This document shows positions 1,356 through 26,261 of a stretch of DNA of 28,283 nt, piece after piece. How positions within the stretch are numbered: the first letter of the stretch is position 1; each line of letters begins with the position of its first letter. The notes under the pieces were generated by a model. It was not told where the DNA came from. It saw only the letters and a program-made list of their open reading frames with translations, and ran no database searches. Location of the stretch: the IMG/VR virus record IMGVR_UViG_3300030102_001498, positions 1-28,283 of that record. One strand, written 5' to 3'. Made by a program: the position numbers and the translations under genes. This stretch comes from a virus.

Positions 1356-2048
1356 TTATAAACTTATACTATTTCTTTCTGCAATATCATTACGTACTTT
1401 GTCAGAATTAGTAGCAGATAATAAACTGCTAAATATTACGACTTCAAATATTGTTGCAGTTGTTAAAGATGATGCACCTGATGATGCACCAATTTGTTCA
1501 AAACCAAAACTACCTGCACCAGTACCAGTACCTAAAGATACACCATTCCTAGCTACTCTTACTAAATTGCTTGAATTTCTACTTACTTCTGCTATTGCTT
1601 TAGTAGTACCAAAACCCTCACTTAATGTAATGTTAGCTACTGTATTACCATTTTTCATTTTAAATGCAGTTGCAGTACCACCATTTGCAAAACGCATAAA
1701 AGATGTATTATTTGCACTACTAATAAAGGTTTCACTATTTTCTTCTGATAAATCTAATACCATAAATACATGATAATCACCACTTTCAACAAATGTTGTG
1801 CTAAAATCTAAATTATCATTATTTTCACTATCTGTTACAAAACCACCTCCACTAAATCCTGATCCCTCTTGTGCATTTGCAGTTTGACTTGCATGGTTAT
1901 TATTACCACTACTATCATTCCATTGTATACCATCAGTTATTGCACCTTGACCTGTATTAAATTTAAACCATACTTTTAAAGTTTCAATATCTGTAATAGC
2001 AAAACCACTACTAACCCTAGATTTTAATACTAATGCTTGATTTAACAT
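1356..2048 (-). CDS. LamG/concanavalin A-like virion protein
   Basis: A 230-residue protein whose body looks like a LamG-type jelly-roll: VWFKFNTG near residue 27, WNDSSGNNNHASQ near 43, then alternating beta-strand and Gly/Ser/Asn loop segments with VARNGVSLGTG near 165 and a C-terminal ATIFEVVIFSSLLS strand. Such domains bind glycans and are often displayed on phage heads or tails for weak attachment to cell surfaces. There is no signal peptide, so it is not secreted by the Sec path. It sits between small virion proteins and the portal (portal ATG 2 nt after its stop), which favours a head-decoration or fibre role. Fold assignment is from pattern only. Confidence 0.65.
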   Translation of the reverse strand: MLNQALVLKSRVSSGFAITDIETLKVWFKFNTGQGAITDGIQWNDSSGNNNHASQTANAQEGSGFSGGGFVTDSENNDNLDFSTTFVESGDYHVFMVLDLSEENSETFISSANNTSFMRFANGGTATAFKMKNGNTVANITLSEGFGTTKAIAEVSRNSSNLVRVARNGVSLGTGTGAGSFGFEQIGASSGASSLTTATIFEVVIFSSLLSATNSDKVRNDIAERNSISL

Positions 2049-23417: not shown

Positions 23418-23804
23418 TTATTTTTTTACTTTTTCAATAGAACGCCCACCAAAATATGCACCAATAACAGTTATTAATACTAATTGTAATAAATCAACCC
23501 AACTTGCTTTTACATTAAATGTAATAATACCTGCATCAATAAAAATTAATAAAACAGTTGATACACATAAAAATATTAATACTAATGGTCTAATGTTTTT
23601 TGATAACCAACTATCTGACTGCATATCTAATTTCCAACGTTCTGTGACTTGTTTTTGCATTTCTGCTTCATAACCTAAAATCATATTTTTGATTTTTTGT
23701 TCAGCTTCTAATTTTTCTTCTTTGCTTGTATGCAAATTATCTATTACATTACCAACGTTTTTTATTAATTCATTTGCACCACTTGTAAATAATTTATTAA
23801 TCAT
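23418..23804 (-). CDS. 3-TM-family holin
   Basis: A 128-residue protein matching the holin of 3TMs family. An N-terminal amphipathic helix (NKLFTSGANELIKNVGNVID) and a charged coiled region with Trp (QKQVTERWKLDMQSDSWLSK) are followed by a conserved N-IRPLVLIFLC (70-80), a first membrane helix to about 96 and a second at 103-120, ending in FGGRSIEKVKK. Such proteins form pores in the inner membrane at the end of infection. It overlaps the lysis candidate by 8 nt. Confidence 0.85.
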   Translation of the reverse strand: MINKLFTSGANELIKNVGNVIDNLHTSKEEKLEAEQKIKNMILGYEAEMQKQVTERWKLDMQSDSWLSKNIRPLVLIFLCVSTVLLIFIDAGIITFNVKASWVDLLQLVLITVIGAYFGGRSIEKVKK

Positions 23805-24261
23805 AATCTATATATTGTATTGTAACACGTTCACCATTTTCTAATGCCTTTGCAATTTTTGGATATATACGTTTATATGCATTACCTGATTTTCCAATAA
23901 AACCATCTTTTATTATGATGTTATTTTCTTGACTATCACCGACAAGTAAACACCCTGCCGAATGGCTATCATCATTTCCTATGTGTATTAGTATATATTC
24001 AAAATTTGGTACGTTCATAACTTGTAACATGCCTTTATGAAACGCAAATTTTTTACTATATCTTTGATGAAATCCACCAACTGTTCTAAACTCTATATCA
24101 TATATACCTGCTGGTACTCTAGTTTCACCTGGTATTTTTAATGCTCTACGTTCATCTTCTAATGTATAACATAAAAAATTATTACCTAAATCTGTACGTT
24201 CAAATAATAAACCACTTGTACTATCTTCTTGACTGCTAAATCTTAATACGATTAATTCCAT
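23797..24261 (-). CDS. DUF5675-like protein, candidate endolysin
   Basis: A 154-residue protein with the DUF5675 pattern: LRFSSQEDSTSGLLFER at the start, NNFLCYTLEDERR, IPGETRVPAGIYDIEF (43-58), GMLQVMNVPNFEYILIHIGN and HSAGCLLVGD (100-109). The segment His93-x-Gly95 followed by Ser101-x-Gly103-Cys104 copies the active-site order of L,D-transpeptidase-like folds (HxG ... SxGC), suggesting an enzyme acting on peptidoglycan peptides. There is no signal peptide, so it would need the holin next door (8 nt overlap) to reach the wall. It starts at TAATG after the basic 43-residue protein. Lysis is inferred; no other endolysin was found. Confidence 0.7.
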   Translation of the reverse strand: MELIVLRFSSQEDSTSGLLFERTDLGNNFLCYTLEDERRALKIPGETRVPAGIYDIEFRTVGGFHQRYSKKFAFHKGMLQVMNVPNFEYILIHIGNDDSHSAGCLLVGDSQENNIIIKDGFIGKSGNAYKRIYPKIAKALENGERVTIQYIDYD

Positions 24262-24392
24262 TATCTACCTTGACCTTTATATAGCTTTAGGAATTGTTTA
24301 CCACCTTTTGTTCTTGATCTATTTTTTGAATGTATATTTTTACGTTTCTTTTTTGATTTTTCTCTATATGTAAAATTAATTCCCTTTGCCAT
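24261..24392 (-). CDS. Small very basic protein (43 aa)
   Basis: A short frame from ATG 24392 to TAA 24261, coupled to both neighbours by TAATG. It starts MAKGINFTYREKSKKKRKNI, continues HSKNRSRTKGGKQF and ends LKLYKGQGR. About 40% of residues are Lys/Arg. The K-R-K-x-x-H-x-K ... Y-x-GQGR order is recalled from many short, unannotated Bacteroidota phage proteins. The composition suggests binding to nucleic acid or the ribosome, though position is among lysis genes. Function unknown. Confidence 0.65.
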   Translation of the reverse strand: MAKGINFTYREKSKKKRKNIHSKNRSRTKGGKQFLKLYKGQGR

Positions 24393-24769
24393 TAGTTAAA
24401 CTTGTTTAAAATTATGTTATCAACAAAGTTTTGCACATCTTTACGTGTTGCATCTAACTTCATCATTATGTTTGCTTCATACCTTACTTTTTCTTTACCA
24501 TCAAATATTATGACAGTAGGCACTTTGCTTACGTTTAAGGCACTTGCATGTGCTATGTCCATATAATACACTACACAATCATTTAAGTTGCTTAAATCTA
24601 ATGTATTTGCTTTATTAAAATCTGCATTGATTTGTAATACAACAATGCCATTTTTAGTTTTATTTAAATTTGTTATTGTTTGTTGTGCATTTGAGGTTTT
24701 TATTATGCACAATAAGAATAGTATATATATTAAAAATATACCTATATATTTATTTAGTAGATAATTCAT
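24392..24769 (-). CDS. Exported thioredoxin-fold protein without CXXC
   Basis: A 125-residue protein. The first 28 residues (LLNKYIGIFLIYILFLLCII, then KTSNAQQ) look like a signal peptide cut after Ala-28 or a membrane anchor. The rest follows a thioredoxin fold: GIVVLQINADFNKANTLDLS (41-60), DCVVYYMDIAHASALNV (64-80), and VPTVIIFDGKEKVRYE (83-98) with the cis-Pro84. Where active thioredoxins have WCxxC, this has FNKAN, so redox activity is not expected. It lies between the one-TM and the basic protein in the lysis block. A chaperone-like or periplasmic binding role is inferred. Confidence 0.65.
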   Translation of the reverse strand: MNYLLNKYIGIFLIYILFLLCIIKTSNAQQTITNLNKTKNGIVVLQINADFNKANTLDLSNLNDCVVYYMDIAHASALNVSKVPTVIIFDGKEKVRYEANIMMKLDATRKDVQNFVDNIILNKFN

Positions 24770-25031
24770 ATAATCTAGCGTCTAATTTATTAAGCTGAGA
24801 TTTTATTTCTTGTAAATCATTACCATTGTTGATTACTTCCAAACCAATTGCTTCAATTCTAAGATCAAATTCAACACGTTCAATAGGTGATTTTGGTTCA
24901 ACCATTGCTTCTTGTATTTTTGCTTCTAATGTATACCACATGCCAGTCATTGACACTAATACAACACCTAATCCAATAATACTTTCTAAACTTAATTTTA
25001 GTTTTGTTTGTTTGCTAATTTCAGTTGCCAT
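24750..25031 (-). CDS. One-TM coiled-coil membrane protein (lysis-region)
   Basis: A 93-residue protein with one membrane helix at about 16-36 (SIIGLGVVLVSMTGMWYTLE) and a C-terminal coiled coil (VINNGNDLQEIKSQLNKLDA). The N terminus is short and basic. Layout and position resemble the holin-like or inner-membrane spanin-like proteins of Bacteroidota phages. It is coupled to the Cys-rich peptide before it (TAATG at 25031), a pairing that could form an envelope-spanning complex. The start overlaps nothing else; its end overlaps the thioredoxin-fold gene by 20 nt. Confidence 0.6.
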   Translation of the reverse strand: MATEISKQTKLKLSLESIIGLGVVLVSMTGMWYTLEAKIQEAMVEPKSPIERVEFDLRIEAIGLEVINNGNDLQEIKSQLNKLDARLYELSTK

Positions 25032-25114
25032 TATTTTTTACAATTTTTTTCACATTTATTAAAACATACTAATCCAAATGTTAAAAATGTTATTATTTTA
25101 CAAATTGTTTTCAT
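25031..25114 (-). CDS. Tiny Cys-rich membrane or secreted peptide (27 aa)
   Basis: A frame from ATG 25114 to TAA 25031: MKTICKIITFLTFGLVCFNK then CEKNCKK. Residues 4-18 are hydrophobic and there are four cysteines (5, 17, 21, 25). It starts within 2 nt after the barrel gene stop and shares TAATG with the next gene. It could be a minimal lipoprotein (outer spanin-like) but the residues before the Cys do not match a good lipobox. Confidence 0.45.
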   Translation of the reverse strand: MKTICKIITFLTFGLVCFNKCEKNCKK

Positions 25115-25116
25115 AA

Positions 25117-26208
25117 TTAATAAAATAAATAATTAATACCTGCTTTTACACTATAAAATTCACGTTGCCACATGTCATTGTAGTCACCCTCTATAAAAAA
25201 ACCTAGACGTTTCTTTTTACCTATTTTTGTACCCATTATAAAACCTACACTATAATCTATTCTGTCAGGTTCTAAATCTATATAACGTTCTACATCTTCA
25301 TTTACATCATCTAACCAACGTTTTGGATATATGTCTGTCCATGCATGTAACCAAAATTTATCTGTATACGTATAATAACTTGTACCTATTGCTAAAATCA
25401 TTTCACGTACCATACCTAAACTGTCTTGAACGTCTAATGTATATTCACGTACTATTTTACCAAAATGATATTTGTAAAATTCGTGATCTGTTTGTGCTAT
25501 TTCTACACCATCAGGATTATACCATTTCCAATCATACCAATCATACCAGTCATCAACACCATTATTTTCACCATCAACATAATAATATTGATCACTATAA
25601 TCATAATCATATGCTAATTGATAAAATGGATTACCTTGATCAAAATATGCTTGTATTGCATTGTAACCATAACCTAATGGTCGCCAACTATTCATTAAAC
25701 CAAACGTAAAATTTAATTTGTTACCTGCTTTTAAACGTAAACGTGTGTCTAAATTTGTATATTTTATATCTGCTAAACCATTAAATCTTTGTTCTGCACG
25801 TATTGTATAAAAATCACCTAAATATCTAACAAATATATGTCTGTTTTCAAATTCCCTGCCTTGTTGTCTTTTTAATTCTATTTGTGCCTTATATTCAAAA
25901 CCATGTACTGCACCAATTAATCCATTGTCAGTATGATATTTTTCTGTACCATCATAAAAATTACCTGGTTTAGTTTGATAATCAAATCTTGCAATTTTTC
26001 TAATACCTAAATGTATACTAAAATCATATGGATTTTCACGTGTTAAATTGACTAATTCATTTTCTTGCATTTGCCAATTGCCTTGCTGAAATAATGAATT
26101 GTTTACACTAATTGATGTGTAAATAGTAGACCATTTTAATAAATCGTACTGTGCAAATAAATTATTAGTTGCAAATAAAATTAATATTGTGTATATTATT
26201 TTTTGCAT
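25117..26208 (-). CDS. Phage-encoded outer-membrane beta-barrel protein
   Basis: A 363-residue protein with a clear signal peptide (MQKIIYTILILFATNNLFAQ, cut near Ala-19) in Bacteroidota style. The mature part alternates polar and aromatic residues in long amphipathic strands (RHIFVRYLGDFYTIRAEQRF, LDTRLRLKAGNKLNFTFGLM, IDYSVGFIMGTKIGKKKRLG) and ends in FYSVKAGINYLFY with the aromatic terminal residue typical of outer-membrane barrels. A Trp/Tyr/Asp-rich loop (DDWYDWYDWKWYNPDG, about 220-235) would face outward. It lies between the connector and lysis genes. Possible roles: blocking superinfection, altering the surface, or helping outer-membrane disruption. The barrel call is by pattern. Confidence 0.7.
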   Translation of the reverse strand: MQKIIYTILILFATNNLFAQYDLLKWSTIYTSISVNNSLFQQGNWQMQENELVNLTRENPYDFSIHLGIRKIARFDYQTKPGNFYDGTEKYHTDNGLIGAVHGFEYKAQIELKRQQGREFENRHIFVRYLGDFYTIRAEQRFNGLADIKYTNLDTRLRLKAGNKLNFTFGLMNSWRPLGYGYNAIQAYFDQGNPFYQLAYDYDYSDQYYYVDGENNGVDDWYDWYDWKWYNPDGVEIAQTDHEFYKYHFGKIVREYTLDVQDSLGMVREMILAIGTSYYTYTDKFWLHAWTDIYPKRWLDDVNEDVERYIDLEPDRIDYSVGFIMGTKIGKKKRLGFFIEGDYNDMWQREFYSVKAGINYLFY

Positions 26209-26261
26209 TTTTTTAAATACGTTTTAAGTTTTTTTTCATTACTAGCTTTTGGTCTATACAT
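26196..26261 (-). CDS. Possible tiny basic peptide (21 aa)
   Basis: A frame from ATG 26261 (TAATG with the connector stop) to TAA 26196: MYRPKASNEKKLKTYLKKCK then K. It overlaps the barrel gene start by 13 nt. The coupling matches other genes here, but the length is too small to be sure. It may only serve to reinitiate translation for the barrel gene. Confidence 0.35.
   Translation of the reverse strand: MYRPKASNEKKLKTYLKKCKK

Follow-up and report, generated by a model that had tools for sequence, protein, structure and literature searches.

The 28,283-base virus record analyzed here (the window) carries three genes, encoding a predicted outer-membrane beta-barrel, an inner-membrane coil protein and a thioredoxin-fold protein without its active site, that form a unit conserved far beyond the window phage. 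The trio has the look of a device, so far undescribed, that would open or remodel the envelope of the host, and we consider it slightly less than evenly probable (roughly 0.47) that its products form a trans-envelope complex that helps to breach the outer membrane at lysis, spanin-like without being a spanin. The phage very probably infects a flavobacterium, because the window terminase shares 54% identity with its counterpart in Flavobacterium phage 11b and the DUF6712 protein resembles that of Nonlabens phage P12024L.

The barrel gene (25117–26208, minus strand, ATG start codon) encodes 363 residues. Homologues with 75–78% identity are present on five other contigs (four full-length and one cut by the contig end), and dozens more share 31–35% identity. 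Comparison of the window barrel with its homologues gives dN = 0.16–0.19 and dS = 0.74–0.91 (dN/dS approximately 0.2), and the open reading frame is therefore a real gene under purifying selection. Its N-terminus, judged from the sequence and from recurrence in the family, is of signal type and Bacteroidota-like, MQKIIYTILILFATNNLFA/Q (NLFA/Q), and its C-terminus is LFY; the final aromatic residue is Tyr in the window copy and Phe in 62 of 72 homologues. A lipobox-like start occurs in 17 of 72 homologues, and by eye none was found in the window barrel or its neighbour proteins.

The structure of the barrel was predicted with AF2 using 34 family rows (31–78% identity to the window barrel), giving a model (pLDDT 74.4, pTM 0.66) with a signal helix, 12 long strands and a conserved insert of approximately 88 residues (178–265) between strands 7 and 8; only five close homologue rows were uninformative (pLDDT 37). 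The top PDB matches in Foldseek are outer-membrane proteins (NanC, 2wjr, E = 5.8e-5; OmpG; FapF; autotransporters), with low TM-scores of 0.2–0.35 on the query. The best of them, NanC of the NanC/KdgM porins, is 12-stranded like the window protein but differs from it in size (204 residues), in having no insert and in sequence (9% identity, TM 0.33 on the query). Over 89 aligned sequences, the difference in hydrophobicity between strand faces is 0.81, compared with 0.45 ± 0.10 after shuffling within strands (p = 0.0005), and an amphipathic-window count on one barrel sequence was marginal (p = 0.004–0.1). Conservation of the predicted insert (3.1–3.5 bits) is similar to that of the strands (3.0–3.8 bits), so that the predicted exposed part is unlike a surface decoy. 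An earlier note on this DNA had proposed an exported outer-membrane barrel and had let the proposal depend on structure prediction; a barrel is what the model shows, and the 12 strands, the Foldseek matches, the strand faces and the C-terminal aromatic residue all bear the proposal out. Insertion in the outer membrane is well supported as a prediction.

To collect relatives, IMG/VR was scanned with the neighbouring DUF5675 gene and the barrel profile was then run on the recovered loci. The profile recognizes distant homologues at E values of 2e-49 to 2e-39 among the matches listed, a 16-member alignment confirmed at least 589 barrel relatives among at least 600 pattern matches in IMG/VR, and the 89 unique complete barrels fall into 35 clusters when grouped at 80% identity. 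A narrower alignment had suggested that the cassette is unique to six close phages, which the wider one proved wrong. No credible barrel match was obtained in Pfam, PHROGs, NCBIfam or a PDB sequence search, or by tblastn in isolated phages, consistent with the earlier description of the envelope module as a candidate for an undescribed system; weak matches to DUF3316, Laminin_G_3 and ribosomal L31 were taken as chance. A viral model in BFVD (A0A516LKJ4) does match the barrel in fold (E = 2e-26, TM 0.68, 25% identity). A pattern scan of GTDB genomes returned no barrel, and neither did a search of 400 Flavobacteriaceae genomes, run without a positive control. Among 398 genomes of the order Flavobacteriales there were only two matches, both on phage-like contigs (L344 and L345); neither the family nor the order-wide set yielded a cellular barrel homologue. 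The module is also undescribed in the open-access literature searched.

The envelope-directed neighbours that had been proposed for the barrel do exist, as proteins of 27 (25031–25114), 93 (24750–25031) and 125 residues (24392–24769), all on the minus strand, and the latter two are its constant partners. The 93-residue coil protein, assigned from its sequence and linkage, has a short basic N-terminus, one transmembrane helix and a charged helical tail, and reads as an inner-membrane protein with a periplasmic-type tail. The 125-residue protein carries an export signal and shares with thioredoxin the fold, the F.A.W strand and the cis-proline region, and the profile of its family finds the solved thioredoxin 2vim (E = 1.2e-7). 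It differs from thioredoxin in being exported, in its linkage to the barrel and coil genes and in having NxxN for CxxC: the window protein reads INADFNKAN at the former CxxC site, of 86 unique sequences, 78 have Asn at the two cysteine positions by pattern and the other 8 by eye, and both residues are invariant in alignment A8. On these profile and pattern matches the protein is classed as a thioredoxin fold without the CxxC redox site, a fold kept by selection after the loss of its chemistry. Host thioredoxin serves phage T7 as a cytosolic polymerase factor, a role that is unlikely here because the protein has an export signal. A WNxxN thioredoxin-like relative (L346:110–475) adjoins seemingly ordinary chromosomal genes, which may point to a cellular origin for the active-site-less thioredoxin.

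The linkage of the three genes is tight. The coil and thioredoxin-fold genes share the locus and strand of the barrel in all 35 clusters and lie directly downstream of it in 31 (a count that pools all locus sets, including loci fetched with DUF5675), and the coil stop overlaps the thioredoxin start by one base in 35 of 65 loci fetched with the barrel. The cassette also behaves as a unit, since the same cassette stands in a different phage backbone in locus L003 and is thus shared by two backbones. The envelope module proposed in the earlier note therefore stands as a module, with its limits redrawn: the true unit is the barrel, coil and thioredoxin trio, which in the window belongs to a single string of overlapping genes that also includes DUF5675 and the holin. 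In three further loci (L210, L249 and L256), coil and thioredoxin genes lie beside a holin and near DUF5675 without this barrel; in the last of these, a 132-residue secreted barrel-like protein (L256:1630–2028, weak OMP_b-brl match) precedes them in its place.

As had been claimed, the barrel sits between connector-type genes (the portal end and DUF6712) on one side and lysis genes on the other. The gene order in the window is MYRPK peptide, barrel, Cys-rich peptide, coil, thioredoxin, basic peptide, DUF5675 and 3TM holin, all on the minus strand, and from barrel to holin each junction either overlaps or spans 2 nt, so that the trio is translationally coupled to DUF5675 and the holin. The MYRPK peptide (26196–26261; 21 residues, MYRPKASNEKKLKTYLKKCKK), read in the sequence, shares 13 nt with the start of the barrel gene, and in relatives its MYKPK... 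counterparts come after DUF6712. The Cys-rich hydrophobic peptide of 27 residues starts 2 nt after the barrel; hydrophobic CF(N/G)KC peptides of 27–31 residues are found in lysis cassettes with or without a barrel (L009:4075–4170; L071:5497–5583). The 43-residue basic peptide (24261–24392, HSKN...GQGR) likewise recurs in relatives' lysis cassettes without a barrel, and very basic peptides of 40–44 residues ending in GQGR occupy the lysis region throughout the phage group (L021:7293–7427; L081:8777–8899). The DUF5675 protein (23797–24261; Pfam PF18925, E = 3.1e-25), with a conserved H.GN...S.GC and a weak match to Tlde1 (L,D-transpeptidase type), may be an uncharacterized cell-wall enzyme, and it stands where relatives have an M15 endolysin. 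The 3TM holin (23418–23804) matches the holin family phrog_3427 at E = 4.8e-33, with PF11351 just below the cut-off.

Outside the window, the association with lysis genes is broad and variable. Among 80 related loci tabulated, 68 have an M15 endolysin and none of those 68 has the trio; in four the trio occurs, always together with DUF5675, and six have DUF5675 alone. In trio-less relatives, other small transmembrane proteins fill the slot. The link with DUF5675 is partly a sampling effect, one locus set having been fetched with that gene, and 13 long DUF5675 contigs lack any barrel, so DUF5675 does not need the barrel. Considering only loci fetched with the barrel, a holin or DUF5675 lies no more than 7 kb downstream in 39 of the 50 with sufficient room, and the other 11 have neither in that span. 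Of the two phage-like contigs from Flavobacteriales genomes, L345 has an M15 endolysin gene (Peptidase_M15_3) overlapping the barrel start and L344 has an amidase endolysin (Amidase_2 with PG_binding_1) after the thioredoxin gene. In large phages, tail-fibre-type genes intervene between the trio and the lysis genes.

Many of the larger phages add a gene for a secreted repeat protein beside the trio, directly after the thioredoxin gene in many loci and ahead of the barrel in L344 and L319. Of 51 secreted proteins encoded after the trio, 42 match the type A sorting tail of the type IX secretion system (T9SS) (E ≤ 0.01, alignment A9), which suggests that phages with such linked cargo also deliver proteins to the surface of the host. 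No T9SS cargo adjoins the trio in the window or in L003. Cysteine-rich GCTD...DDGSC repeats are seen in several of the secreted proteins (L344:10202–13186, L275:11687–13669, L227:5301–7127; alignment A9). Phage-encoded T9SS cargo has already been reported for Cryophage (PMC7468147), with the same type A sorting tail; that cargo comprises enzymes and PA14 proteins, and a barrel–coil–thioredoxin module is not known to accompany it.

Together, these features lead us to propose action at lysis. By sequence reading, the coil protein would reside in the inner membrane, its charged helical tail probably outside it, with the thioredoxin-fold protein in the periplasm and the barrel in the outer membrane. 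The fixed linkage of the three genes suggests one complex, and the coupling of the trio to a holin and to different cell-wall enzymes (DUF5675, M15 or amidase) suggests that it acts at lysis. Made together with the holin and the putative cell-wall enzyme, the three proteins would bind one another in an assembly that spans the envelope and, after the wall has been cut, help to open the outer membrane, the job of spanins in other phages of Gram-negative hosts. Like the spanins (Rz/Rz1 and unimolecular), the trio has overlapping genes in a lysis neighbourhood, a putative inner-membrane protein whose helical tail would be periplasmic, and a predicted outer-membrane partner; unlike them, its partner is a predicted 12-strand barrel and it has a third, thioredoxin-fold protein. 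As there is neither a lipoprotein partner nor a sequence match, it is not a spanin by membership. The bolder proposal, of a new machine in which barrel, coil and a redox-dead structural thioredoxin open the outer membrane from inside at lysis in spanin-less Bacteroidota phages, we regard as doubtful. How a stable barrel would break a membrane is not obvious, and the 11 loci with no nearby holin or DUF5675, the intervening tail-fibre-type genes, the lack of a lipobox in the window protein and the surface traffic suggested by the T9SS-tailed partner of many modules all count against lysis.

The chief rival, a serious one, is that the phage remodels the cell surface or excludes superinfecting phages: a displayed barrel, alone or with type IX cargo, would block, hide or replace receptors while the coil and thioredoxin-fold proteins aid its assembly. 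It draws on the predicted outer-membrane location and on the sorting tails of the secreted proteins, and prophages are known whose porins and lipoproteins keep other phages out. The window and L003 lack cargo beside the trio, however, the predicted extracellular insert is not hypervariable, and the trio is tightly coupled to lysis genes, so that we hold this explanation to be rather improbable. Of the functions offered in the earlier note, lysis is favoured by gene neighbourhood over a superinfection block or receptor release. The same absence of cargo from the window and L003 weakens the idea that the trio is an export or anchoring device, a dedicated outer-membrane partner of phage T9SS cargo. 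PorP/SprF-type barrels do partner some host T9SS cargo at the outer membrane and cargo genes do adjoin the trio, yet no NCBIfam model matches the barrel at E ≤ 5 in a library that covers T9SS barrels, and we judge such a device unlikely.

Two other roles have still less in their favour. A nutrient or solute channel supporting the infected cell, that is, an auxiliary metabolic gene, is hinted at by NanC and OmpG among the top PDB matches, but the TM-scores are low, no cellular barrel homologue was found, and the fixed partners and the lysis linkage would be left unexplained; we consider it highly improbable. A virion protein, which the adjoining connector-type genes in the window and the nearby tail-fibre genes in large phages might indicate, is the least probable of all, given the family's export signal and outer-membrane fold; no match to a virion family, and no homologous virion protein, was found.

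Other phages also make outer-membrane barrels, among them the cyanophage OMP family PF24653, the phage porins and prophage outer-membrane proteins such as Lom and Lc. These barrels belong to other families and are smaller or different, and they are not known to have fixed coil and thioredoxin partners; the PF24653 (Phage_OMP) profile matches none of 34 members of the barrel family at E ≤ 1. Little is known of how Bacteroidota phages get past the outer membrane at lysis. A survey of North Sea flavophages inferred the canonical holin/endolysin model and described candidate unimolecular spanins in just two phages (PMC8776804). The module described here offers three concrete genes with recognizable outer-membrane and inner-membrane parts and a dead thioredoxin of striking conservation, and it recurs in hundreds of matching stretches, with a barrel unmatched in the annotated isolate collection. 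Elsewhere in the window (1356–2048), a protein with ...LKVWFKFNTGQGAITDGIQWNDSSGNNNH is similar to the lectin-like proteins encoded after the trio in several of the large phages (L301, L267).
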